Positions 8,362-43,515 of a DNA stretch of 43,515 nt are shown piece by piece. The DNA comes from a virus: the IMG/VR virus record IMGVR_UViG_3300010045_000001, positions 1-43,515 of that record. The stretch is one strand, 5' to 3'. Each line of letters begins with the position of its first letter. Position 1 is the stretch's first letter. The notes below the pieces were generated by a model. It had not been told where the DNA came from, made no database searches, and saw only the letters and a program-made list of their open reading frames with translations. Made by a program: the position numbers and the translations under genes.

Positions 8362-9696
8362 ATGGACAAGATCGTTAAGGCCACCCCCGCGAGCGTCACC
8401 AGAACCGCCCGCGCCGTGCTGCGCGCGGCCGGTCTGCTCGACGCCGTCGTGAAGGTCAGCAGCGCCGAGGGCCCCGTCGGCGACAACGGCCGGCAGATGT
8501 GGGTCACCGACGTCGACATGGTGCGCAGCGAGAAGTCGGTCAAGGCGGCCGTCGACGCGCTGTCGGCCGCCTACCCCGGCGCGACCGTCAAGGCCACGCC
8601 GTACGCCAACATCATGATCGTGCGGGTGACCCGTCCGCAGGACGAGGACACCACCGCGGCGGCCGCCGTCGTGATCGACGGCCCCGCCGAGGGCTACCAG
8701 GCGACCGGCGAGTTCGGCCCCGGCCGCGACAAGCGGTTCGCCGACGGCCGCCCGTGGGCGCAGCAGATCGACGTCGCGCGCCGCGAGGGCATCACCGACA
8801 CCACCGAGGCCGAGCGCGCCGCGCGGGTGTACCTCGCGGAGGACCGCCGGAACGAACACCCCGAGCTGCGCACGTGGGCACCGGGCGACGAGCTGCCCAA
8901 GACGCCGCCGCACACCGTGTTCGACGTCGACGGCTACGTGTGGGAGCACCAGGCGCACGGGATCGGCGTGTACCGCTTGGCCGCGGCGGGCCGCGAGCTG
9001 CTCGCCGCTGAGGTCGAGCCCGGCGACGAGCTGCTGTTCGACACCGTCGGCGAGCGGCTGTGGCCGTACTTGCTCGACGGCGAGGGCCCGGTCACCGAGA
9101 CCGTGCCCGTGCGCGGGGTGGCGGCCGCGCAGGTGCCCACGCTCCCTCGGCAGTGGCTCGCCCCGAGCGGCCGCCCGATTGGCCACCCGACCGGCATCTA
9201 CAACGGGCACGAGTTCGAGTACGACCGCGAGAACGACCTGCACCTGTGCGTGCTCTGCGAGCGGTACGAGGTCATGGTCAAGGTGGAAGCCGACGAGTTG
9301 ACCGGCGAGTACCCGAGGTGCACCGGGTTCCCGGCCTACGGCGGCGACCTCGCCCGGGTCTACCTCCGGCTCACGATCAACCCCGACGTCGCCGGCGACG
9401 CCACGCGCATGATCGCCGACGCGTTGTGGCAGTTCACGCCGGTGATCGGCCGCACGCCGCGGTTCGGGTGGAACCCGGACACGTGCAAGCTGCTGGTCGA
9501 GACCGCCCCGGGCCGGGTCGACGAGCTGCACGAGAAGTTGATCGACTACCGCCGGACCCCCATCCCCACCGACGACGGCGGGTTCGAGATCCCGGTCGTG
9601 AGGATCGACCAGCTCACCGGCGACGAGGGCCTCGAACTGCTCGCCGACAACTACGCGCGGTACGTGGCGGAGCACGGCACCCGGGCCGGTGCCTGA
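8362..9696 (+). CDS. Hypothetical 444-aa protein, early operon
   Basis: Starts at ATG 8362; the nearest Shine-Dalgarno-like sequence (GGGAAGGA, 8342-8349) is 12 bases away, so translation may depend on the leader hairpins. I do not recognise the family. It is soluble, acidic and alpha/beta. The second half holds Cys pairs (LCVLCERY, then PRCTGF) that could bind zinc, within a region GIYNGHEFEYDRENDLHLC. It is the first of the translationally coupled genes running to the integrase (stop and next start overlap as TGATG). A role in the lysogeny decision or host takeover is possible but unproven. Confidence 0.75.
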   Translation: MDKIVKATPASVTRTARAVLRAAGLLDAVVKVSSAEGPVGDNGRQMWVTDVDMVRSEKSVKAAVDALSAAYPGATVKATPYANIMIVRVTRPQDEDTTAAAAVVIDGPAEGYQATGEFGPGRDKRFADGRPWAQQIDVARREGITDTTEAERAARVYLAEDRRNEHPELRTWAPGDELPKTPPHTVFDVDGYVWEHQAHGIGVYRLAAAGRELLAAEVEPGDELLFDTVGERLWPYLLDGEGPVTETVPVRGVAAAQVPTLPRQWLAPSGRPIGHPTGIYNGHEFEYDRENDLHLCVLCERYEVMVKVEADELTGEYPRCTGFPAYGGDLARVYLRLTINPDVAGDATRMIADALWQFTPVIGRTPRFGWNPDTCKLLVETAPGRVDELHEKLIDYRRTPIPTDDGGFEIPVVRIDQLTGDEGLELLADNYARYVAEHGTRAGA

Positions 9697-10052
9697 TGAC
9701 CACGTGGGTTCCCGACTACGAGTTCGAGGCCGGCGACGGGCACGTGTGGGCGCGGCCCGTGGCGGCGTCCGAGGACTGCCCCGACTGCTCGTGCTGCACC
9801 AAGAACCTGTGCACCAAGGCGGCCGCGGCCGAGTTGCCGTGCTGGTGGATCGTCGGCAACCGCGGGCCGGGCACGGCCGACGTGTCCAAGTGCCCGTGCG
9901 GGCAGAAGATCGAGGACCGCGCGACCGCGCGCTCGTACCTGAACGCCTCGCCCGAGGTGCGCGCCGAGTACGAGGCGGACTGCGCGCCCGAGAAGCTCGC
10001 CAAGATCAAGCAGCTCGCCGCCGAGATCGAGAACGAAGGGGCCGCATCGTGA
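9696..10052 (+). CDS. Cysteine-rich putative zinc-binding protein
   Basis: 118 aa from ATG 9696, overlapping the preceding stop by one base. Cysteines cluster as CPDCSCCTKNLC near residues 29-40, one at about 51 and CPCG near 70, followed by a charged helical tail that ends in a long amphipathic helix. The spacing suggests one or two zinc knuckles, as in small nucleic-acid-binding phage proteins. I do not recognise the family. It is coupled to both neighbours and so probably acts with them. Confidence 0.65.
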   Translation: MTTWVPDYEFEAGDGHVWARPVAASEDCPDCSCCTKNLCTKAAAAELPCWWIVGNRGPGTADVSKCPCGQKIEDRATARSYLNASPEVRAEYEADCAPEKLAKIKQLAAEIENEGAAS

Positions 10053-11137
10053 ACCGCCCACGCCGCCGACCGGAGAACCTCGCGTCGTTGGAGCTGCGCA
10101 CGGTCGCCGAGGACGTGCTCGCGACAACCGGGCTCGACGGCCGCGACGACCTGCCGCGCGCGGCCGCGCTCATGCTCGAACTCGTCCTCGACCTCGAACG
10201 GGCCGGGGTGCTCGACCTCGCGCTCGACGGGCTGCCGACCGATCCCGACGTCGACGCCCGGATCACCGGGCTCGCGGTCGCGCTCCGGTCGCACGTCGAC
10301 CAGGTCCGCAAGAGCACCGAGGACGCTCCCACGTCCGAGCAGCTCGCCGCGCGGCAGCAGCTCGCGACCAGGATGCGCGACGCCGCCACGCCGGTGATCA
10401 GCGGGCAGCCGGACGGGCTCGCCCGCCGGACGGCCCTGCTGCTCGACACTCTCGGCGGGCACCTCGAACACGGCGTCGCGTTCGGCGGGCTGCTGCCGCG
10501 CCGGTTCGGCCAGGTCGCCGAGGCGCTCTCCGACTACGGCGCGCTCCCCAAGGTGTTCGCCGAGGGCGGCTCGCTGTCGCCCGGTACGTACCGGGTGATC
10601 AAGCGCGTCGAGGTCGACGACCGCGGGGCCCGCTACGTCGACGAGCCCGGCGGCGTGCCGGTCGCCGGGCTGTGGGCACCGACCCTCACCCTGATCGAGC
10701 CGCTCCCCGACGGCGCGCTCGTCGAGCTGGACCCTGCCGACGTCCTCGGCGAGGCCGCTGATCTGCTGCCGCGCAAGTCGCCGGCTGAGTGGTTGGAGTG
10801 GGTCGGCGAGAACCCCGGCCGGGCCCGTGACGTGCTGGGCGTCGAGTACGGCCGGCCGGAAGAACCGCGCGAGGCCCTCGTCGCCGTGCTGACGACCACG
10901 ATCGAGCACGCGGGCGAGTGCGTCGCCGTGTGGCTGCCGGCCCCCGGCCGGATCTGCCACGCGGCGGCCGGTCCGAACATGCCTCACCGGTGCGTCGCCA
11001 AGCCCGAGGCCGGCCAGCACCGGCGCTCGCTCGTGAACCACGAGTGCGCGTGCGGCACGCAGCTCACGGCGACCGAGGTGCCCGACGCGTTGGCTCAGCT
11101 CGTCGGGCTGCGCAGCGGGACAGGGGCGGGCTCGTGA
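10049..11137 (+). CDS. Hypothetical 362-aa protein with C-terminal Cys/His cluster
   Basis: GTG 10049 overlaps the previous stop by four bases (GTGA). The first 140 residues are helical and Leu/Ala-rich (LMLELVLDLERAGVLDLALD). The last 80 hold several Cys and His residues (GECVAVW, RICHAAAG, PHRCVAK, NHECACG) compatible with a treble-clef or zinc-ribbon fold. No enzyme motif is recognised. It lies within the tightly overlapping early operon. Confidence 0.7.
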   Translation: MNRPRRRPENLASLELRTVAEDVLATTGLDGRDDLPRAAALMLELVLDLERAGVLDLALDGLPTDPDVDARITGLAVALRSHVDQVRKSTEDAPTSEQLAARQQLATRMRDAATPVISGQPDGLARRTALLLDTLGGHLEHGVAFGGLLPRRFGQVAEALSDYGALPKVFAEGGSLSPGTYRVIKRVEVDDRGARYVDEPGGVPVAGLWAPTLTLIEPLPDGALVELDPADVLGEAADLLPRKSPAEWLEWVGENPGRARDVLGVEYGRPEEPREALVAVLTTTIEHAGECVAVWLPAPGRICHAAAGPNMPHRCVAKPEAGQHRRSLVNHECACGTQLTATEVPDALAQLVGLRSGTGAGS

Positions 11138-12681: not shown

Positions 12682-12881
12682 CCGACATCGAGGACCAGGA
12701 CCACGGCGGCGACGTCGCCGCCGTGGTCCGCCGGCTTGCTGAGCGCGGGATCACCGGGCTCCCCGAGCAGCACCTCGTGATCGTGCTCGCCGGGGCGGGG
12801 TCGGTTGCCGCGGCGGTCGCCGAGGTCGCCGAGTCCGAGTGGTGGACCGTGGATGGTTGGGAGGCAACGTGGGAGGACTGA
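12678..12881 (+). CDS. Hypothetical 67-aa acidic protein upstream of the integrase
   Basis: GTG 12678 overlaps the previous stop (GTGA), and the gene's end overlaps the integrase start by 13 bases. It reads TDIEDQDHGGDVAAVVRRLA, then a short Gly/Ala-rich helix (VIVLAGAGSVAAAVAEVAE) and a Trp-rich end (EWWTVDGWEATWED). No family is recognised. The start region contains one copy of the dispersed 11-mer CGAGGACCAGG (12689-12699). Confidence 0.55.
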   Translation: MTDIEDQDHGGDVAAVVRRLAERGITGLPEQHLVIVLAGAGSVAAAVAEVAESEWWTVDGWEATWED

Positions 12882-13993
12882 ACCCGGGCGAGGTGCTCGT
12901 CGGCGAACTCGTCGAGCACGGGCCCGGCCACGCCGGCGGGCTCGCGGTCATCGAGGCCGACGAGCGCGCCGAGCGCGACCGGCACCTGTCCGACAGCGCG
13001 TGGCAGCGCATCGTCAACGCGGTCCCCAAGAACACGAAGCGCGCGTACGCCCGCGTGCTGCGCGGCGTCACCGGCGAGGACGAACCATCGGCCGCCAAGG
13101 GCCGCATCCCGTGGCAGCACATGGCGTGGGAACCGTGGTGTGCGACGTCCGGGCGCACGGCGGGCAACGGCGACCAGCCCGCCACCCGCGAGACGTTCGC
13201 GCAGTGGGCGAGCGACCTGATCGACAACGGGATCGGCGTGCCCGCGCTCGAACAGGCAGTGGCCGCGGTGCAGCGCTACCACCGGGCGTACGGCCACCGG
13301 GGGCATCCCGATCCGGAGCACGTCGAGGCCGTGCTCACCGATCACCGCGCGGGCACCGGGCACACGCCCGACCAGGTCGCGCCGGTGACGCTGCCGATCC
13401 TCGCCGCCATGCTCGACACCTGCGACCGGGACACGGTCAAGGGCCGGCGCGACGCCGCCATGCTGGTGACCGGGCTGGCCGGGATGTTCCGCCGGTCCGA
13501 GATCGCCGCGCTCGACCTGTCCCGGATGCGGGAGAGCGCCGAGGGCCTGGTCTACCGGCTGCCCAAGAGCAAGACCGACCGGCGGGCCCGCGGCGTCGAG
13601 GTCGTGATCCCGCGCAGCCGTCGGTCGGGCAGCCCGACCGACCCCGTCGCGCTCGCGCTCGCCGTGCGCGCGGACCTCGCCGAGCAGGGCATCACCGAGG
13701 GGCCGCTGTTCCGGTCGGTGGACCGGTACGGGACGTACCGGGGCCCGCTCGACCCGAACGGCTACGACGTCGCCCGGGTGATCAAGGGACGGATCAGCCT
13801 CGCCGGGCTCGACCCGCACCCCTACTCGGGTCACTCGCTGCGCGCCGGCGGTGCCACGGCCGCGTACCTCAAGAGCGCGACCATTCGAGAGATCATGGAT
13901 CAGGGCCGGTGGAAGTCGCCCGGTCAGGTGTTGGAGTACATCCGGCGCGTGGACCGGTGGACCGACAACGCCGCCGCCAAGCTCGACCTCTGA
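12869..13993 (+). CDS. int: Tyrosine recombinase (phage integrase)
   Basis: 374 aa from GTG 12869, four bases after GGGAGG; the in-frame GTG at 12839 lies deep in the previous gene. Residues 40-145 look like a SAM-like core-binding domain (QRIVNAVPKNTKRAYARVLR). The catalytic domain has Arg208 (FRRSEIAALDLS), Lys235 (PKSKTDRRARG), His322-x-x-Arg325 (GHSLRAGGATAAYL), Trp348 (GRWKSP) and nucleophile Tyr357 (LEYIRR), so all key residues are present. It would integrate the circle at a host attB and, with the 8036 excisionase, excise it. It is the last gene of its operon, so its expression is tied to the early genes. Confidence 0.95.
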   Translation: MGGLNPGEVLVGELVEHGPGHAGGLAVIEADERAERDRHLSDSAWQRIVNAVPKNTKRAYARVLRGVTGEDEPSAAKGRIPWQHMAWEPWCATSGRTAGNGDQPATRETFAQWASDLIDNGIGVPALEQAVAAVQRYHRAYGHRGHPDPEHVEAVLTDHRAGTGHTPDQVAPVTLPILAAMLDTCDRDTVKGRRDAAMLVTGLAGMFRRSEIAALDLSRMRESAEGLVYRLPKSKTDRRARGVEVVIPRSRRSGSPTDPVALALAVRADLAEQGITEGPLFRSVDRYGTYRGPLDPNGYDVARVIKGRISLAGLDPHPYSGHSLRAGGATAAYLKSATIREIMDQGRWKSPGQVLEYIRRVDRWTDNAAAKLDL

Positions 13994-14051: not shown

Positions 14052-14142
14052 TCGTTCTCCCCCGCTCACGCGGGGACCTACGCCCGGTCTGTTGTCGAGC
14101 TGAAACAGCCAACCGGTACACCCCCGCTCGCGCAGGGACCAG
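14052..14142 (-). repeat. Two hairpin repeats around a 33-nt segment: attP arm sites or decayed type I-E CRISPR-like unit
   Basis: Two 29-nt units, 14052-14080 and 14114-14142, match at 21 of 29 positions with a 62-bp period. Both share a CCCCCGCTCrCGCrGGGACC core, and the first folds as CCCCGC-TCAC-GCGGGG. Read on the minus strand (GGTCCCyGCGyGAGCGGGGG) they resemble the type I-E CRISPR repeats common in actinobacteria, and 29 + 33 nt is a normal repeat-spacer size. No cas gene is present. The 33-nt segment 14081-14113 holds a dyad (CTGTT 14089-14093, AACAG 14104-14108), so an integrase core site between arm sites, i.e. attP just downstream of int, is an equally good reading. Confidence 0.45.
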
Positions 14143-14314: not shown

Positions 14315-16501
14315 CTACCCGTCGCGTCGGGCCGCGAGCCACTCGCCGAGGTAGCGGTCGAACTCGTCGAGGCGGAACCCCTTGGGGTTCTTGCCCGGTT
14401 CGAGGTTCATGTCCCTCGTCGGCGGTCTGAGCGTCTTCCCCATGACCCGGGTCAGCTCAGCCGTCACCGCCGTGGCCGCGAGCGGCACGCCGTTCGCCGT
14501 GCAGTGCGCGGCGATCTCGGCGACCGACGCCCGCGGCACGTCCCGGTGCGAGCTGTTGACGACGATCGCCTCGCGGACCAGGGCGACGAGCCGGGGCACG
14601 TCTCCCCCGTCGGTGAACCGCTGCCACACCGCGGCATCGGCCGGGTTCAGCTCCGGTGCGCCGGCGCGCACGGCGGCCGCGCGGCTCGCGCCCTTGTCCG
14701 TGCCCGGCCACCGAACGAGCCGGGTCTCGGCGCCGACGATGCCGTAGCACTTCCCGGCGTCGCGCGGGTCGTTGACCTTGGCCGGCCGCAGGGTCGAGGG
14801 CCGGGCCCCGCCGTGCCGCCACTCGGCGGGCAGTGCCGCCTCATCGTCGGCCGACATGGCGAACAGCCACACCGTGTCGATCTGCGAGGTGACCACGCGG
14901 GACTTCATGAGGTCGCTCTGCCGCTTGTTGTTGGCCAGGTTGACCCGCACCCACACCTTCCGGCCCGAGACGATGATCGAGTCGACCAGGTCGCGCAACG
15001 TCTTGTGCTGCGCCAGTGACCAATACTCGTCGACGGCGAGGACCCACGGCCGCCCCATGTCCTCGTTCCACTCGTTCTCGCCGGATGCGGTGAACCGGGC
15101 CGTCCGGTCCTCGATCAGCGCGACGAGGAACCTGAGCACCCGCTCAGCGCGGACCAGGTCCGCCGCGAACACGCCCTCGTGCATGGCCGGCGCGAACGTT
15201 TCGAGGTCGGCCCCGCCCATGAGGTCGATCCCGACCAGGTGCGCGCGGCCGGCCAACCACCGCAGGCACTCGCGCTGCGCCGTCGACTTGCCCGATCCGG
15301 TGGTCCCGATCAGCAGCATGGAGTCGATCAGCGGCACCCGGACCGTGCTGCCGTCGTAGGACCGGACCAGCGGGGCCCGCTGCGTCAACGTCCACCCCGG
15401 CGGGGCCTCTACCGCGTCGACGGGGTCGGCGATCAGGTCCTCATGGATGGTGCGCACGACGTACCGCTGCATCTCCCCCGCGACCGGGCTCACGATCAGC
15501 CCGCCGCGGAGGGTGTTGAGCGCGTGCGCGAGGTCGTCGAGCTGCCGCAGGGTCAGCCGGTGCGCGGTGCGGATCTCGAACCGGAACCCCCACTCGCCGC
15601 GCCGGACCTGCTCGACGACGGCCCGCGCCTTGACCTCGACCAGCCGCTCTTGCAGTTCGGCCATAGCCCCTCGGTTCGAGGCGGACAGCAGCAGCCCGAC
15701 CGGCACGACCGGGGCCTCGCCCGCCACACCGGTCAGCAGCTCGTCGTCGTCGGCACCGCAGGCGCGCAGCCACGCGCGGCCGATCCACGCGAGCCCGGCC
15801 GCCGTCACCGACAACACGCCGAGATCGCCCCACCACGGCATCCACTCGAACAGCGCCGGCGGCCCCCACACCACGGCGGGCCCGCCGATGCCGACGAGCA
15901 CGCCGGTCCGGATCGCCCGGTCCCGGCGCAGCTCGACCCGATGCTGATGTACGGCGTCGGTGAGGTTGCCGTGCTGCCGTTGCAGCGCGCCCACCGTGGC
16001 GGCCGCCCCCGAGTCGTTCAGGTCGAGCGTGCGGACCGCCTCGCGCACCTGGCGGGCGAGACCCTGCGCGGCCGCGCGCTGGTCGGCGATCTCGGCGGCC
16101 CGGTCGGGCTGCCGGACCCACCGGAGAACCGCGTCCGGCGCGACGAACAGTGCCCCGGTGCCCAACCACCACAGCCCGAGTCCGGTCGCCCGCAACACCT
16201 TCGGCGCCCCGACCTCGACGAGCCGAGCGAGGTCGACCTCGGGCAAGCGGAACCTCGTCGAAGGTCCGGCGACCTCGCCGAGGTCCGGGGTCCGGACCTC
16301 GGCGAGGTCCGGGTTCGAGGGTCCGAGGTCCGGGGTCCGGACCTCGGCAGGGTCCGGGTTCGAGGGTCCGAGGTCCGGGGTCCGGACCTCGGCAGGGTCC
16401 GGCACCGGACCCCACGCCAGTGCGGCGGACCCTGCCACCACCGGCGCGGGGTCCGAGGTCCGCCACTGCGCAGGGCGGATCACGTTGTCGTTCTCGCTCA
16501 T
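14315..16501 (-). CDS. FtsK/SpoIIIE-type DNA translocase, TraB-like
   Basis: 728 aa from the ATG at 16501; ATG 16513 is an in-frame alternative four bases after the upstream stop. A repeat-rich N-terminal stretch (residues 33-75) is followed by hydrophobic segments at about 104-122, 198-218 and 226-245, then the motor domain with Walker A GTTGSGKS (399-406) and Walker B VLAVDEY (487-493). The C-terminal 90 residues contain a winged-helix-like segment (SVAEIAAHCTANGVPLAATA) at the place of the FtsK gamma/TraB DNA-reading domain. In actinomycete plasmids and AICEs this protein alone moves double-stranded DNA between hyphae. It is last in a leftward operon with a multi-span membrane protein and two small genes. 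Confidence 0.88.
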   Translation of the reverse strand: MSENDNVIRPAQWRTSDPAPVVAGSAALAWGPVPDPAEVRTPDLGPSNPDPAEVRTPDLGPSNPDLAEVRTPDLGEVAGPSTRFRLPEVDLARLVEVGAPKVLRATGLGLWWLGTGALFVAPDAVLRWVRQPDRAAEIADQRAAAQGLARQVREAVRTLDLNDSGAAATVGALQRQHGNLTDAVHQHRVELRRDRAIRTGVLVGIGGPAVVWGPPALFEWMPWWGDLGVLSVTAAGLAWIGRAWLRACGADDDELLTGVAGEAPVVPVGLLLSASNRGAMAELQERLVEVKARAVVEQVRRGEWGFRFEIRTAHRLTLRQLDDLAHALNTLRGGLIVSPVAGEMQRYVVRTIHEDLIADPVDAVEAPPGWTLTQRAPLVRSYDGSTVRVPLIDSMLLIGTTGSGKSTAQRECLRWLAGRAHLVGIDLMGGADLETFAPAMHEGVFAADLVRAERVLRFLVALIEDRTARFTASGENEWNEDMGRPWVLAVDEYWSLAQHKTLRDLVDSIIVSGRKVWVRVNLANNKRQSDLMKSRVVTSQIDTVWLFAMSADDEAALPAEWRHGGARPSTLRPAKVNDPRDAGKCYGIVGAETRLVRWPGTDKGASRAAAVRAGAPELNPADAAVWQRFTDGGDVPRLVALVREAIVVNSSHRDVPRASVAEIAAHCTANGVPLAATAVTAELTRVMGKTLRPPTRDMNLEPGKNPKGFRLDEFDRYLGEWLAARRDG
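16281..16410 (-). repeat. 45-bp tandem repeat inside the FtsK/TraB-like gene
   Basis: Nearly three copies of a 45-bp unit begin at 16281, 16326 and 16371 (the last is truncated). Each holds the 10-bp palindrome GGTCCGGACC (16290-16299, 16335-16344, 16380-16389) within a larger CGAGGTCCGG-rich dyad. The period equals 15 codons, giving protein repeats of the type PDLGPSNPDxAEVRT. Related copies occur in the next gene at 16794-16926. Confidence 0.9.
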
Positions 16502-16517
16502 GTTCTGCCCCATCTGC

Positions 16518-17816
16518 TCAGACCTCGGCGAGGTCTGCGCGCTCGCGCACAGCCGCCCACAGAGCCGGCACGTAGTCGTTCGGCACCTTCCGACCACCTG
16601 CACGAACGGCGGTCTTGAACGTCCGCTGATTCGGCCGTTTACCCTCGGCGACCATCTCCCGATAGACCTGCACGCCCACCACCACCAGAGCGGCGAACAC
16701 GTCGTCATCTGCGTCGGGCACCTGCTCGCGGGTCAGCGCGGGGAACTGCTCCGTACGAGGTCCGCCGGGGTCCGGGGCCGGCTGGACTTCGAGGGTCCGG
16801 ACCCCTGCGAGGTCCGGCGTCGAAGGTCCGGCGTCGAGGGTCCGGACCTCGGCGAGGTCCGCAGGGTCCGAGGTTCGGACCTCGCCGAGGTCCGGGTTCG
16901 AGGGTCCGGGGTCCGGGGTCCGGACCTCGGCAACGACGACGGCAACAGGGTCCGAGGTCCTGACCTCGGACCCCCACGGCGAGGACTGGGCGAGGTCCGC
17001 CAACTTGTCGACGTGCTTGATCACGGCCAGTTCGGCGAGTAGCCGGCTACGCGCTTCCTCGTCGTGCGCGACGTTGGACAGCTTGAGCGCGCGGTCGAAC
17101 TTCTTCCGGTCCTTGGCCTTGGTGGGCACGCCGTCGACAACCATCCACGCGAGCCGCCGGGCGTGCCGGTCGGCCCGGCGCCGTGCTGCGTCCCGATCGT
17201 CGTTGGCCAAGCCGAGGCGGGACAGCGCCCGTTGCAGCAGCTCGTTCGCGATGCGAGCCGCGGTGCCGGTCGACACCTTGTTCGGGTTGTTGTGCCGCAG
17301 GTCCAGCCCAAGCGCCAAGTGCAGCGCGACCAAGCCCAACACCGGGCCGAGGACCACGCGGGCGAGGCCGACCAAGAAGTCGTCCGTGACCATCACGGCC
17401 ATGAACGCCGAGGCACCGGTCAACGTCCACGCCACTGCCTGATACGGCCCGTGGCCGGGGGCGTCCTTGGGGTTGCGCGCCTGGGCACGCAGCGCCAACC
17501 CACACGAGATCAACAGGACTTCCAGCAGCGAGAACATGCCGATGCGCTCGACCACGTTCTCGATGCCGATCTCGTGCTCGAAGAACCGCCACGAGGTGTC
17601 GGCGCTGAGACCGAGGCTCATGAAAGCGGCCGTGTAGAAGCCGGCGGAACCGGCCGAGGTCTTCTCCGCGGCCGGCCTGCGCCGGGCAGAGCGGGCACGG
17701 ACCGCCCGCACGGCCAGGAGGACCGCGAAGAGGACCGCGCCACCGGCGCCCATGAACATCCACAACCGGTCAACCCGAACTGCGGTCAACCACTCAACGA
17801 CCGATGTCACGTTCAC
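16518..17816 (-). CDS. Multi-span membrane protein (DUF2637/Spd-like)
   Basis: 432 aa from the GTG at 17816. Hydrophobic spans lie at about residues 17-38, 92-110, 124-143 and 149-171, with the loop FMSLGLSADTSWRFFEHEIG between the first two; this matches the DUF2637-type membrane proteins often found beside FtsK/TraB genes in Streptomyces plasmids and AICEs. A basic cytoplasmic region (ARRRADRHARRLAWM) is followed by a repeat-rich linker (284-345; AEVRT, GPSNPD) and a C-terminal domain (REMVAEGKRPNQRTFKTAVR) that could bind DNA. The stop is four bases from the alternative FtsK start, so the pair is coupled. A role in plasmid-type spread or as a translocase partner is inferred. Confidence 0.75.
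   Translation of the reverse strand: MNVTSVVEWLTAVRVDRLWMFMGAGGAVLFAVLLAVRAVRARSARRRPAAEKTSAGSAGFYTAAFMSLGLSADTSWRFFEHEIGIENVVERIGMFSLLEVLLISCGLALRAQARNPKDAPGHGPYQAVAWTLTGASAFMAVMVTDDFLVGLARVVLGPVLGLVALHLALGLDLRHNNPNKVSTGTAARIANELLQRALSRLGLANDDRDAARRRADRHARRLAWMVVDGVPTKAKDRKKFDRALKLSNVAHDEEARSRLLAELAVIKHVDKLADLAQSSPWGSEVRTSDPVAVVVAEVRTPDPGPSNPDLGEVRTSDPADLAEVRTLDAGPSTPDLAGVRTLEVQPAPDPGGPRTEQFPALTREQVPDADDDVFAALVVVGVQVYREMVAEGKRPNQRTFKTAVRAGGRKVPNDYVPALWAAVRERADLAEV
16794..16926 (-). repeat. Degenerate copies of the 45-bp repeat in the membrane-protein gene
   Basis: GGTCCGGACC palindromes occur at 16794-16803, 16839-16848 (45 bp apart, the same period as in the neighbouring gene) and 16917-16926, set in CGAGGTCCGG-rich sequence that extends loosely over 16755-16997. 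They encode AEVRTxDxGPSxPDL-type residues in the linker of the membrane protein. Confidence 0.8.
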
Positions 17817-17860: not shown

Positions 17861-18301
17861 TCAAGCGCTTGGCCACGCGGGCGGCCCGGGTGGCGACGGC
17901 TGTGGCGTGAGGCGTTCCTTGAGGATCACCAGCTCGTCACCGCGCCGAGCAGCGAACCGCAACGCCCACGCGCTCACACGGCCGGGGTCGGAGGGGTCGA
18001 CCACGCCCTCGACGACGTGGCGGGCGAACGCCTCGGCGGTCCCGATCGCCGCCGAGTAGTTCTTGCCCGCCAACGGCAACTCACCGAGACCGTTGACGTC
18101 CTCGACCAGGAACCGGCGCCACTGCACCGACGTCGACCACGGGCCGTCGTGCTCGTCGAGCTGGGTGCTCGCCACCGGGTACACCCGCATGTGGCGGCCC
18201 TGCGTGAGGTCGACGCACGGCACCGGGACGGCCCGCGTGCTGTGGTCGTCGACGCGAACCCACGTCAGCGCGTTCGCCGGGAACACCTTGTGCACGGTCA
18301 T
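17861..18301 (-). CDS. Hypothetical 146-aa protein in the transfer-like operon
   Basis: ATG at 18301, TGA at 17863-17861. A soluble protein opening TVHKVFPANALTWVRVDD with a WSTSVQWRRFLVEDVNG segment and a helix-rich C-terminal half ending in a Pro-rich tail. No family is recognised. It lies three bases after the stop of the upstream small membrane gene and 44 bp from the start of the large membrane protein, so one leftward operon (18544 to 14315) is likely. Confidence 0.7.
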   Translation of the reverse strand: MTVHKVFPANALTWVRVDDHSTRAVPVPCVDLTQGRHMRVYPVASTQLDEHDGPWSTSVQWRRFLVEDVNGLGELPLAGKNYSAAIGTAEAFARHVVEGVVDPSDPGRVSAWALRFAARRGDELVILKERLTPQPSPPGPPAWPSA

Positions 18302-18671: not shown

Positions 18672-18698
18672 TGGCTGAACCGTGAAAGGATCTTGCGC

Positions 18699-19529
18699 AT
18701 GAGGCGCTACCTCGAACTTGCTCACCTGATAGAGCAGCGGATAGACGACGGCACCTATCCCGAGGGGAAGCGTCTGCCCGGCCGCGACCGGCTCGCCCGC
18801 GAGTTCGGCGCGGGGTCGGACACGATGACGCAGACCCTCACGTACCTCCGGGCCGAGGGGGTGATCGAGATCCTCCCCAAGTCCGGTGCGTGGCCGGTCT
18901 CCCGCGAGCAGCGGCGGCCAGCGCGCTGGCAGATCGACGTCGGCACCATCCGACGCAGCCCGCGCGGCTACCTCATGGGCGCGGGAACGGGCGACTGGTC
19001 GCCGATCGGGCAGCCCGAGGTCGAGCGTGTGCCGCTCCCGGCCGACGTCGCGCTGCTGCTCGCCGACGAGGTGAGCCCGCTCGTCGAGGGCGACCAGGCG
19101 GTTGTTCGCCGCCGGGTCGTCGGGCCTGGGTACGCCGTGCAGCTCACCTCGACCTACCTCTCGCCGCGGCTGGTCGAGCAGTTCCCGGTCGTCGCCGACG
19201 TCGACACCGGCGCCGGCGGGTGGATCGACCGGGTTGAGGAGCATTTCGGGTCGCCGGTGTCCGCCGAGTGGTCCGCGTACGGCCGCCGCCCGACACCCGA
19301 CGAGGTCGAGCTGTTCGAGCTGCCCGCCGGCGCGTCGGTCCTACAGCTCTACCGGCTGATCACGACCTCAGCCGACACGCCGCTCGCCGTCGAGGTGGCG
19401 GTGTGGGACGCGCGCCGGGTCGAACTCGTCGGCCGGATGCACCGCGACACGTCCGCCACATGGCCGGTTCCGCCCGCCACTATGCGAAACTCCCCCGGGG
19501 ACGATGATCACCGCAACCCTGCGGTCTGA
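18699..19529 (+). CDS. GntR-family (HutC/UTRA) transcriptional repressor, KorSA-like
   Basis: 276 aa from ATG 18699, eight bases after GAAAGGA; the in-frame TTG at 18693 is less likely. Residues 1-68 form the GntR winged helix (LAHLIEQRIDDGTYPEGKRL, then LAREFGAGSDTMTQTLTYLR and a wing near GVIEILPKSG). Residues about 90-250 are a UTRA-like effector domain (VVRRRVVGPGYAVQLTSTYL, ASVLQLYRLITT). In pSAM2-type elements the GntR repressor KorSA silences transfer and replication genes, and the position here, divergent from the FtsK operon and upstream of rep, is the same. The ACTAGT boxes upstream are its likely target. Confidence 0.88.
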   Translation: MRRYLELAHLIEQRIDDGTYPEGKRLPGRDRLAREFGAGSDTMTQTLTYLRAEGVIEILPKSGAWPVSREQRRPARWQIDVGTIRRSPRGYLMGAGTGDWSPIGQPEVERVPLPADVALLLADEVSPLVEGDQAVVRRRVVGPGYAVQLTSTYLSPRLVEQFPVVADVDTGAGGWIDRVEEHFGSPVSAEWSAYGRRPTPDEVELFELPAGASVLQLYRLITTSADTPLAVEVAVWDARRVELVGRMHRDTSATWPVPPATMRNSPGDDDHRNPAV

Positions 19530-19697: not shown

Positions 19698-19915
19698 GGC
19701 CCCCGCGCTTGAGCAACGCGAGGGCCGAGAGGAGTGAAGCAAGACCCCCCGGTGAGCGCCGGGGGTGTGCTGAGCGGACGGGATCGCACCCCCGCCGCTC
19801 GGGACGCCTGATTCGACTTGAGACCCGCAACCAGGCGAGACCCATCGTAGCCGGCGGCACCGACAGTGCCGCCCCGCATACGACGTGTCGCGCCGGAAAG
19901 GCGCAGACGCGTATG
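19698..19915 (+). promoter_or_regulatory. Highly structured leader of the putative rep gene
   Basis: Successive hairpins: 19698-19707/19717-19726 (10 bp, one mismatch); 19746-19752/19759-19765 (CCCCCGG/CCGGGGG); 19772-19782/19791-19800 (10 bp, one bulge); 19805-19810/19832-19837 (CGCCTG/CAGGCG); 19853-19860/19866-19873 (GGCGGCAC/GTGCCGCC). Last, CATACG (19877-19882) pairs with CGTATG (19910-19915), which contains the start codon, and encloses GCGCC-GGAAA-GGCGC (19890-19904), whose loop carries the ribosome site. This suggests translational copy-number control or an antisense-RNA target. Confidence 0.6.
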
Positions 19916-21925
19916 GGTGATCTCGCTCACGAGGGAGGCTCGCTCGCCGTCGGTCTGGGAGGACCGTCACGACGGCTCGACCGCAAGAGCCCCCGCCGCG
20001 GCCGACCGGTCGAGGTCGACCCGGGCGACCCCACGAGTCCGGACCGGGCGGCCGCGGCCGTGTGGCACCGCCACGCGGGCGAGGTGGACTGCTCGCCGCA
20101 CCTCGCGGGCGAGGTCGACAGCTACCTACTGCGCGCCGGCATCCGGTACGCCCTGTTGCGCTACGTCCCCCGCTCCGTGCGGCTGACCTGGTGGCGCGAG
20201 CTGAAGGCCGTTCCGCTGCCCGACGGCGTGCGGGTGTGCTGGGACGGGGCCGAGGTGTGGCTCGACGAGGTCGAGCGCCGGCTCGTGCGCCAGGACTGGC
20301 ACGAGAAGCGGATGCGGAAGTGGCGCCGGTTCGCCGCCCTGGTCGCCGCGAGCACGCAGCGCGGCGGCCGCCCGATCACCGGCCCCGGCCTCACCCTGCC
20401 CGAACTCGCCGTCGCCCTCGGCGACCCGGGCAAGCCGATCAGCGAACGCTGGGTTACCCGAATCATCCGGTGGTATCGCGACGAGAAGCTGCTGCGCGTC
20501 GTGCTGCCCGGCACCCGATCGGCCCGCCTGCACGTCCCCGAGGACGAGCTGAAGGCCGGCCAGGTCGAACGCACCGCGTACGAGGTCGCCGTCGAGGCCG
20601 CGCACGACGCCCGTCACCGCGTGCTCAAGCGCTGGCACGAGGACGAACTCGCCGCCCGTGCGGCCGGGGTCGCTCCCCCACCCCACCCCGACGAACTCGC
20701 CGCGTTCCGCACGCACCTCGGGCCGGTGCCCGAACGCGATGACGACGTGTACCTGCTGCGCGTGGCGCAGGTGTACGAGCTGCTGATCCCCGAGGCCCCA
20801 GACGTCCGCGACGCTCCCCCGCAACGGTCCCTCCCCCGTGGAGTCGTCGACCTCGCGGCCGCCCGCGAGCGTCGCGCTCAGGCCCGGCACGGCACCCTCT
20901 CGACGGCGGGCGTGAGGCCCGGCATCGAGGCCGTTCTGTCCACGCTGGACCAGCCGCGCGGACCTCGTCGGCAGCTCACCCGGGCCCTGCGCGGTCTCTC
21001 AGTCCACACTGAAGCGTCAGAAAGTTCTACCCCCTCGCTGTTCACCACCGAAGGTGGTTCTGTTCTCCAAAACAGCGGGGTTGTGGATGAACGACGCCCT
21101 TCGGGCGGCTCATACGCAGAGGTCCTCGCAATGCCCGAGGGTCCGAATCACCCCATGCACACCGGCCCGGCCCCTCTCCGGGCAGCGTGGCGGCTGTTGC
21201 GGGGAATCCTGACCAGGCGCGATCAGGGTGAGGCCGTGCTGCCGCGGCAGCTCTGCGTCGGGGTGACCCCGGTCAAGCTCGCCCGGTGGATCGGGCCCTA
21301 CGTCGCCGCCGGCTGGTCCGACGCGCAGCTCGTCGCCGTCATCGCGCACCGCGGCGGGGCCTGGTCCTACGTCCCGCCCGAGATCCCCAACCCCCTCGGG
21401 TGGATCAGGGCCGCGCTCAACCGCCGACCCCCGACCGCTCCCCCGCTGCCCGACGAGATCCGCGGGCTCGTCGACGAGGTCGAGAACGAGAACGAGCGGG
21501 CCCGGCGCGAGCGCGAGCAGCGCGCACCCGAGATCCACAAGGCGGCTCACTGGGCGGCGATCGCCGGCTGCGAGCTGTGCGACGACCTCGGGTTCCGGCA
21601 GCTCGACGGCAGCGGTCCGCCCGTGCGCTGCTACCACTCCCCCGCCGACGCCGCCGAGGCCGTCGTCGAGGACCAGGCCCCCGCGCTGCCCCTCGACCAG
21701 GTCGACGAGCTGATCGCCCGCACGCTGGGCAAGCCGCGGGGCCTGGTCGACGACGAGGTTCTCGCCGAGGCCCGGCGCCGCTACGACGCGCGCCGTGCCG
21801 CCGAGGTCGTCGAGGACCAGGCCCCGGCCGCCGAGGTCGTCGAGGACCAGGGCGGCCGGCTCACCCACCAGCAGGCAATGACGCTGATCCGCAACGGGTT
21901 CAAGAACCGCAAGGGTCGGCGCTGA
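19913..21925 (+). CDS. Putative replication initiator with winged HTH and zinc knuckle
   Basis: 670 aa from ATG 19913. The frame is open to 19709, but that part encodes Arg-rich non-protein-like sequence over the structured leader, so the shorter start is preferred. Residues about 150-215 (LTLPELAVALGDPGKPISER, VTRIIRWYRDEKLLRVVL) look like a winged helix. A second domain (LPRQLCVGVTPVKLARWIGP through IPNPLGWIRAALNRR) and a Cys cluster CELCDDLGF...CYH resemble replication proteins of actinomycete plasmids and phages. The C-terminus repeats VVEDQAP three times. The gene is followed at once by iterons and a long non-coding region, as expected of rep beside its origin. The family assignment is inference. 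Confidence 0.6.
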   Translation: MGDLAHEGGSLAVGLGGPSRRLDRKSPRRGRPVEVDPGDPTSPDRAAAAVWHRHAGEVDCSPHLAGEVDSYLLRAGIRYALLRYVPRSVRLTWWRELKAVPLPDGVRVCWDGAEVWLDEVERRLVRQDWHEKRMRKWRRFAALVAASTQRGGRPITGPGLTLPELAVALGDPGKPISERWVTRIIRWYRDEKLLRVVLPGTRSARLHVPEDELKAGQVERTAYEVAVEAAHDARHRVLKRWHEDELAARAAGVAPPPHPDELAAFRTHLGPVPERDDDVYLLRVAQVYELLIPEAPDVRDAPPQRSLPRGVVDLAAARERRAQARHGTLSTAGVRPGIEAVLSTLDQPRGPRRQLTRALRGLSVHTEASESSTPSLFTTEGGSVLQNSGVVDERRPSGGSYAEVLAMPEGPNHPMHTGPAPLRAAWRLLRGILTRRDQGEAVLPRQLCVGVTPVKLARWIGPYVAAGWSDAQLVAVIAHRGGAWSYVPPEIPNPLGWIRAALNRRPPTAPPLPDEIRGLVDEVENENERARREREQRAPEIHKAAHWAAIAGCELCDDLGFRQLDGSGPPVRCYHSPADAAEAVVEDQAPALPLDQVDELIARTLGKPRGLVDDEVLAEARRRYDARRAAEVVEDQAPAAEVVEDQGGRLTHQQAMTLIRNGFKNRKGRR

Positions 21926-21942
21926 CTCCCCTACCACGCGAC

Positions 21943-21986
21943 CGTGTGCCGATCGTGTGCCGATCGTGTGGAAAGCGTGTGCCGCT
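21943..21986 (+). repeat. Four phased 11-bp iterons (candidate replication origin)
   Basis: Units start at 21943, 21954, 21965 and 21976: CGTGTGCCGAT twice exactly, then CGTGTGGAAAG and CGTGTGCCGCT. All four begin CGTGTG with an exact 11-bp period, one helical turn, so a bound initiator would sit on one DNA face. They start 17 bases after the stop of the putative rep gene, typical of iteron plasmid origins. Confidence 0.65.
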
Positions 21987-22584
21987 CCCCCACCGGCGGC
22001 CGCCGCCCGGCCGCGTGGTGCGTGGGTGATCACCGGCGGCCCGGCCCGCGTGGTCGCCGAGGCGGCGTGGGGGAGCGGCGTGGGGGAGCGTGGCGCCCTG
22101 GTCCTCGTCGACGAGCGGGCGAACGCCCCTGGTCCTCGCCCCCGGGCCGCGGCGACGAGCTGCCCGTCGACCCCCCGTCGGCGGCCGGGCCGACCCTGGC
22201 CAGGTTGGACACGTCGACCGCCGACGGGTCGGCGACGCCGGGCGGCGACCCCCCCTCCCCACCCAAGCACCCAAGCGGGCAAAACCCCAGGTCAAGCGGG
22301 TACGCGGCCACTCCCCGCAGGTCACCGGCGTCCGCTCCCCCACGCGCCCGCGTGCCGGCGGCCGACCGGAGCGGAGACGGTTGCCCGGCCGGCCGCCGAC
22401 GGGGGAGGGGCGCCGCGTGCGTAGCCGCGTACCCGCTGGTCACCCATGCTGCACCGGCAGCGTGCCGCCCGCTTGGGTCGCGTGCTCCCCCACGCGACGG
22501 CAAGCGCACGACGGACAAGCCACGCGGCACGCTCGCGCACCACGCGGCCGCATCACCTCGACGGCCCGGGAAGTGATGCGACTA
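21987..22584. other. Long non-coding origin-like region with dispersed 10-mers
   Basis: About 600 bp without a credible gene; the open frames are Arg/Pro-rich shadows. The 10-mer GTGGGGGAGC occurs at 22067-22076 and 22080-22089, and its reverse complement at 21984-21993, 22334-22343 and 22484-22493. The last copy lies in a perfect hairpin, GTCGCGTG (22477-22484) with CACGCGAC (22491-22498). Two copies of the dispersed 11-mer CGAGGACCAGG (reverse strand) lie at 22097-22107 and 22128-22138. Together with the iterons this is the best candidate for ori and possibly a cis-acting transfer locus. Confidence 0.55.
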
Positions 22585-22641
22585 CCCCGATCGGGGGATA
22601 AGAGGGTTACGGACTTTACGTAACTTCCGGAACCTCCGTAA
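22585..22641 (+). promoter_or_regulatory. Cluster of palindromes before the Phd-like gene (candidate autoregulatory operator)
   Basis: CCCCGATCGGGG (22585-22596), TTACGTAA (22616-22623) and TTCCGGAA (22625-22632) are perfect palindromes, and TTACGGA (22607-22613) pairs with TCCGTAA (22635-22641). Four TTACG half-sites lie within 35 bp in the least GC-rich DNA nearby, so a promoter with overlapping operator sites is likely. Confidence 0.55.
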
Positions 22642-22651
22642 GGTGCGCGTC

Positions 22652-43072: not shown

Positions 43073-43450
43073 ATGAAATTCATCGTGCGCGGGATCGACT
43101 ACCCGTGGGACCACCAGCGGCTGACGCTGCGCGAGGCACGCGACGCAGAGAAGGCGACCGGCGTGCCGATCAACGACCTGTTGCGCGACTTCAACGGGCG
43201 CAAGCACGAGACCGGCGCGCGGGGAATGGACGGCTACGCCGCGTTCCTGTGGGTCGCGATGCGCAGGAGCGATCCCGCCGTGAAGTTCGAGGACGTGCTC
43301 GACCTCGACGTGTCCGAGGTCGACGAGAACTGGGACGACGAGATCACCCCGGCGGCCGACGAGGTGACCGACGAGACCCCTCCCGTCGCGCTGGCCGCAA
43401 CGACCCGCGGCTCGGCGCGAAGGCCGGCGGCTACCTCGACGAAGAAGTAG
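43073..43450 (+). CDS. Tail assembly chaperone (gpG-like)
   Basis: 125 aa from ATG 43073 (GGGCAACC upstream); stop TAG 43448-43450. Sequence KFIVRGIDYPWDHQRLTLRE, MDGYAAFLWVAMRRSDPAVK and FEDVLDLDVSEVDENWDDEI is a typical first tail chaperone. The -1 frame is open throughout the 3' half and continues across the circle junction into the extension that ends at 186. The only repetitive C stretch where slipping could occur is ACCCCTCCC (43376-43384); it is not a canonical heptamer. Confidence 0.8.
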   Translation: MKFIVRGIDYPWDHQRLTLREARDAEKATGVPINDLLRDFNGRKHETGARGMDGYAAFLWVAMRRSDPAVKFEDVLDLDVSEVDENWDDEITPAADEVTDETPPVALAATTRGSARRPAATSTKK

Positions 43451-43515
43451 CCGCCTACCGGGGCTGGTTCTGGACTGCGTTGCGCACGCCGCCCGCCGAC
43501 ATGGACGCGCTGACC
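43393..43515 (+). repeat. 123-bp terminal repeat identical to bases 1-123 (circle junction)
   Basis: Bases 43393-43515 equal 1-123 without mismatch, and reading frames continue sensibly across the join (tail chaperone into its -1 extension). This is most simply the overlap of a circular or circularly permuted assembly. True direct terminal repeats would not normally fall inside a tail gene. Confidence 0.92.

Follow-up and report, generated by a model that had tools for sequence, protein, structure and literature searches.

A directional 8-bp repeat array within the membrane-protein and FtsK-like genes of a putative phage-plasmid

Introduction

TraB and TraA bind the repeats of the clt locus. 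TraB of plasmid pSVH1 recognizes 8-bp repeats through a C-terminal winged helix, and TraA of pWTY27 binds 7-bp clt repeats that reach 16 bp into traA (PMC3583192). A cis transfer site has been described for rolling-circle plasmids and pWTY27, and theta plasmids of the SCP2 and pZL12 types are described as requiring a tra gene and its adjacent genes (PMC3583192). SpdA2 of pIJ101 binds palindromes inside spdA2, with a phenotype in stability and not in transfer, and SpdB2 of pSVH1 is an integral membrane protein that binds DNA non-specifically and interacts with TraB (PMC4170104, citing Tiffert 2007 for SpdB2). Here we describe an array of short repeats inside two adjacent genes, one for a membrane protein and one for an FtsK-like translocase, in a 43,515-bp viral sequence (IMG/VR record IMGVR_UViG_3300010045_000001; the whole stretch is called the window).

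The array is an unusual intragenic, element-specific and exchangeable form of the clt/sps kind. Like clt and the TraB recognition sequences (TRS) of pSVH1, pWTY27 and pJV1, it is an element-specific cluster of short repeats (7-9 bp in these systems) adjoining an FtsK-like transfer gene. It differs in lying within the coding sequences of the membrane protein and the FtsK-like protein, in about 38 copies, and in that the array type in relatives does not follow the translocase, the C-terminal domain included. As with SpdA2 and its sps sites in pIJ101, the sites fall inside coding sequence, there that of a gene for plasmid spread; binding by the gene's own product has been shown for SpdA2 and is suggested here by the joint inheritance of array and C-terminal domain. 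The sps site is a conserved 12-bp palindrome in one to three copies with the peptide SRDD/E, whereas the window has an element-specific directional 8-mer in tens of copies with 16 peptides, none of them SRDD/E; SpdA2 is a small protein, whereas this array is in a membrane-protein gene. SpdB2 is likewise a membrane protein, and it binds DNA and interacts with TraB where we only predict binding, but its DNA binding is non-specific and the text consulted describes no intragenic array for it. The pZL12 transfer region (pZL12.71c-73c) has the same order of a divergent GntR gene, a homologous membrane-protein gene and an FtsK-like gene. Unlike the membrane-protein gene of the window, pZL12.73c lacks an array, and blastp detects no similarity between the two FtsK proteins.

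The repeat unit

The unit was found by listing all GGTCC in 16230-17020. Two purines precede every one of the 38 GGTCCG sites in 16240-17010, versus 13 of 69 elsewhere in the window, and for this reason the basic unit is the directional 8-mer RRGGTCCG (CGGACCYY on the coding strand), with the palindrome secondary. The sites are packed into 0.74 kb, from the linker of the membrane gene into the first codons of the FtsK-like gene (Table 1), and are frequently 7, 14 or 17 bp apart. Two units joined head to head make GGTCCGGACC.

An earlier note on this DNA reported a palindromic repeat shared by the two adjacent genes, with six copies of GGTCCGGACC. The sharing and all six copies are real, although the palindrome is not the basic unit and the first three copies each begin one base before the positions given (16289, 16334 and 16379, followed by 16794, 16839 and 16917). 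As the note had it, GGTCCGGACC is confined to this region: the count outside 16289-16926 is 0 in the 43,515 bases, and shuffled sequences had 0.36 on average and never more than 3, versus the 6 present. The first three copies belong to the tandem repeat of the FtsK-like gene and the last three to the membrane-gene linker. The 45-bp spacing claimed for both genes is exact in the former (45/45 bp) and fails in the latter (45 and 78 bp). A transfer RNA of unknown type called by ARAGORN at 16841-16918 was rejected as an artefact of the inverted repeats of the array.

Selection on the DNA

That the array is under selection as DNA is well supported, because 37 copies of RRGGTCCG are present versus 8.1 expected from the same protein with the codon usage of the phage (4000 samples, maximum 17, none reaching 37). 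The same sampling gives 0.7 expected copies of GGTCCGGACC, versus 6. The 8-mer occupies all six frame/strand classes and encodes 16 different short peptides, and the selection at the DNA level proposed in the earlier note is thus upheld. A spread of low-complexity linker repeats in GC-rich DNA through slippage or local duplication, with no function of the DNA, would suit linkers that are Pro/Gly-rich and tolerant, and the three copies in the FtsK gene are 97% alike; coiled-coil genes also yield similar one-strand clusters. This origin does not account for the six classes and 16 peptides. The excess is also found in the diverged membrane-gene copies taken alone (18 vs 4.2 expected), within one copy of the FtsK-gene repeat (6 vs 1.2) and in the non-repeat first 33 codons of FtsK (4 vs 0.4), and recent tandem duplication is therefore no explanation. 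With the arrays of relatives on both strands, in all frames and at permutation Z scores of 10-13, we consider slippage very improbable. The AEVRTPD repeats would then be a by-product, in flexible linkers, of an array maintained as DNA.

Arrays in related elements

A sister phage, G467 (IMGVR_UViG_3300037193_001696; L147 and L152), is collinear with the window and has the gene order recombinase, FtsK-like gene, membrane-protein genes, small gene, GntR and Rep. Its FtsK and the N-terminus of its membrane protein are unrelated or marginally similar to those of the window. Exact copies of GGTCCGGACC are lacking in G467, where only sites with one mismatch occur. The corresponding region holds a CGGGCC array with CGGGCCCG palindromes, in all frames, which covers two adjacent membrane-protein genes beside FtsK (L152, ~360-900 and 1406-1556).

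Relatives of the G467 FtsK are found on Pseudonocardiaceae plasmids, where noncoding clusters directly adjoin the FtsK gene or operon: a GGACGG/CCGTCC cluster upstream on pGBA129-24a and a TCCCCG cluster downstream on pAmyja1. Streptomyces plasmids, several of which also encode a terminase and a capsid, have further FtsK relatives. In these the array is intragenic; it occupies the membrane gene that lies upstream of FtsK, except in MMBL 11-1, where it occupies the reading frame after the membrane gene. Its motif is GAGACC in NA02950, NBC_01664 and L215, CGGACC in MMBL 11-1 and S. globisporus, GGCTCA in NBC_01333, NBC_01259 and L212, and CGCTCA in L213. In most relatives the array is spread over several frames. 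Both strands and five frame classes are represented in the GGCTCA and CGCTCA arrays, whose permutation Z scores are 10-13; none of the other 50 genes of NBC_01333 exceeds 5.8. The complete NBC_01333 plasmid has a single GGCTCA cluster, with 22 of 57 copies inside 1.3 kb, and complete NBC_01417 has none. The CGAAGC array of NBC_00043 and NBC_01417 is on one strand only; SCP2 has only a CGAAGC cluster, similar to that of possible coiled-coil genes. The clt-like setting next to an FtsK-like gene, as first proposed, recurs in these relatives. A protein repeat kept while its DNA drifts, which the earlier note had set against its own proposal, was not seen; the opposite was.

At another FtsK-like phage gene (L217, 7959-10037), a GAGACG/CGTCTC array extends over and beyond the 3′ end (9399-10208).

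The probable reader of the array

The earlier note took the FtsK/TraB-like protein to read the array as a clt/TRS locus, its C-terminal domain binding RRGGTCCG and loading the hexamer. TraB of pSVH1 and TraA of pWTY27 are precedents, the 8-mer is directional, and the array abuts the FtsK gene here as the clusters on pAmyja1 and pGBA129-24a flank theirs. The relatives do not support this assignment. The FtsK proteins of NBC_01333 and NBC_01417 are the same over 716 amino acids, and the DNA of the two hardly differs from a point just past the membrane gene onward, yet their membrane genes and arrays differ. L213 and NBC_01664 have FtsK proteins 91% (core) and 97% (C-terminus) identical with CGCTCA and GAGACC arrays, respectively. 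Conversely, NA02950 and NBC_01664 both have GAGACC, yet their FtsK proteins are 51% identical (C-terminus 45%). The window FtsK also lacks a TraB family match (NCBIfam model NF041214, none at E 0.05); its best NCBIfam match is EccCa, at 14 bits, far under the cut-off of that model. We regard the translocase as an unlikely reader.

In the membrane proteins, it is the C-terminal 75 amino acids that track the array type, and not the N-terminal membrane domain. NA02950 and NBC_01664 have the motif and the C-terminal domain in common (Z 11) and not the N-terminus (Z 0), whereas the window and NBC_01664 have the N-terminus in common (Z 43) and neither the C-terminus nor the motif. The window and G467 have a C-terminal type in common (Z 6), with the motifs CGGACC and CGGGCC. 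Because the array type follows its C-terminus and not FtsK, the membrane protein is the better candidate reader. The C-terminal domain of the GGCTCA group is helix-turn-helix (HTH)-like and matches HTH regulators: its Pfam matches are weak, and Foldseek ranks Lrp/AsnC and DeoR regulators highest (probability as high as 0.92, E 0.5).

Proposed function

The FtsK-like translocase operon holds an element-specific array of directional 8-bp sites within coding sequence, and we propose that the membrane protein, through its predicted C-terminal DNA-binding domain, is the most likely reader of the array in its own gene. It would collect the DNA of its own element at the membrane and pass it to the neighbouring FtsK-like translocase, which would transfer or spread it from cell to cell or from one hyphal compartment to the next, much as clt serves TraB. 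For this clt-like docking of a phage-plasmid at the membrane we estimate a probability of roughly 45%.

Several observations weigh against it. The C-terminal domain of the window protein is a three-helix unit with no clear HTH match (Foldseek and VIA-align gave weak, mixed results). The array adjoins the codons of the C-terminal domain, and the joint inheritance could come from linkage rather than recognition. Within-gene codon permutation, a stricter test calibrated on other genes, is weak for the window by itself (Z 4.3-4.6, a level reached by the best 6-mer of other genes). The CGAAGC array of NBC_01417 and NBC_00043 may reflect coiled-coil coding. Plasmid pZL12 has the same membrane gene and FtsK gene with no array, and none was seen in L214, so the array is not universal.

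Since pZL12 keeps the gene pair, the array must be dispensable in some members, which keeps alive an alternative: binding of the array, by the membrane protein or some other factor, would serve to stabilize or segregate the plasmid instead of transferring it, as a membrane-tethered analogue of SpdA2/sps. The array-free pZL12 is reported transferable, and in pIJ101, where SpdA2 binds a palindrome within its own gene, loss affects stability and not transfer (PMC4170104). NBC_01333, NBC_01417 and pZL12 already have ParA genes elsewhere, and it is to the FtsK operon that the array is linked; we think a role in stability doubtful.

More tentatively, we suggest that these loci are previously undescribed and widespread self-addressing transfer or segregation cassettes, in which one gene would combine a membrane protein, its sequence-specific DNA-binding domain and, within its own coding sequence, the array read by that domain. 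Such cassettes may be exchanged as a unit between phage-plasmids, leaving the FtsK motor unchanged and giving each element its own address. If the docking proposal is right, many phage-plasmids may have their cis site within a membrane gene, its reader is predicted, and one motor serving elements with different addresses is explained.

Gene content and nature of the element

The membrane-protein gene sits directly upstream of the FtsK-like gene. Its product has homologues among the membrane proteins of two transfer regions, those of Streptomyces NBC_01664 (1e-20) and pZL12 (pZL12.73c, 2e-8), and its C-terminal helices were predicted by AlphaFold2 (predicted local distance difference test score, pLDDT, 76). 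It has no match to Pfam DUF2637 (PF10935), a domain matched at ~1e-32 by the membrane-protein relatives of NBC_01417 and NBC_00043.

Table 1. Features of the array and its surroundings in the window
Feature	Coordinates	Strand	Remarks
RRGGTCCG array	16263..16999	+	38 8-mers (28 on +, 10 on -); spans two genes; includes six head-to-head GGTCCGGACC
45-bp tandem repeat	16278..16402	+	within FtsK-like gene; Tandem Repeats Finder period 45, 2.8 copies, 97% identity; encodes AEVRTPDLGPSNPD
Diverged array part	16759..16999	+	in linker of membrane-protein gene
FtsK/SpoIIIE-like ATPase	14315..16501	-	728 amino acids; N-terminal linker codons hold first array part; Pfam FtsK_SpoIIIE 25.3 bits (cut-off 24)
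Membrane protein	16518..17816	-	432 amino acids; N-terminal membrane domain, repeat linker (~275-365), C-terminal three-helix domain (~370-432)
Small gene	17861..18301	-	same operon; kept in sister phage G467
GntR-family regulator	18693..19529	+	divergent, as in SCP2, pZL12 and NBC_01664 transfer regions
Probable plasmid replication protein (Rep)	19709..21925	+	related to pAS20800 protein
Tyrosine recombinase	12839..13993	+	SCP2.07c / pZL12.36c type

By match, the window has phage genes for a tape measure protein, terminase, capsid/protease and endolysin. Direct terminal repeats of 123 bp (1-123 and 43393-43515), and of 141 bp at the L152/L147 ends of G467, suggest that both genomes are complete and circular. 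The GntR, membrane-protein and FtsK module is present together with an SCP2/pZL12-type recombinase, the FtsK being of another subfamily than that of pZL12. Judged from its genes, the window is best read as a circular actinophage with plasmid functions, a soil-bacterium phage that probably persists as a plasmid and has an SCP2/pZL12-like transfer region. No close relatives of the window FtsK were found in viral_contigs, genome_contigs, plasmids or 395 actinomycete genomes, and none of the membrane protein in viral_contigs. The phage matches of the FtsK are distant only, and it was not found in 50 records with a related capsid.

The Rep-like gene is followed by ~700 bp without a confident gene (21926-22642), where tandem CGATCGTGTGC and GCGGCGTGGGGGA make a candidate plasmid origin. 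In the Amycolatopsis plasmid pAS20800 the Rep relative is followed by iteron-like repeats and ParAB; a CCCGGAAC cluster and ATTTACGG iteron-like repeats come directly after the gene (L193, 12834-13165 and 13201-13640). The array was rejected as a replication origin because Rep and its trailing repeats (21.9-22.6 kb) lie elsewhere, and as a packaging site because the terminase (32 kb) does too. Just downstream of the tyrosine recombinase are two copies of CCCCGCTC[AG]CGC[GA]GGGACC, 62 bp apart (14060-14078 and 14122-14140), which could be its recombination site or a one-spacer remnant resembling clustered regularly interspaced short palindromic repeats (CRISPR) and which are not above chance by a 3-mismatch count.

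Across genomes in general, most arrays of GGTCCGGACC are repeats, intergenic or coding, with no relation to this one, and the 10-mer alone was rejected as a marker. A CCGGACC/GGTCCGGACC array is common to Streptomyces genomes and one IMG/VR record (L123, 9309-9871; L132, 528-1166; L143, 5725-6186; L145, 6915-7379), and a query with the window FtsK found no FtsK at these four loci. In L123 the array is intergenic, and the element around it encodes a P4-type primase and a serine recombinase and has iteron-like repeats. Tandem arrays containing GGTCCGGACC also occur, mostly apparently between genes, in unrelated bacteria (L126, L144, L142, L128 and L140), the hosts being Thermoanaerobaculia, Sorangium, Polyangiaceae, Myxococcales and Achromobacter.

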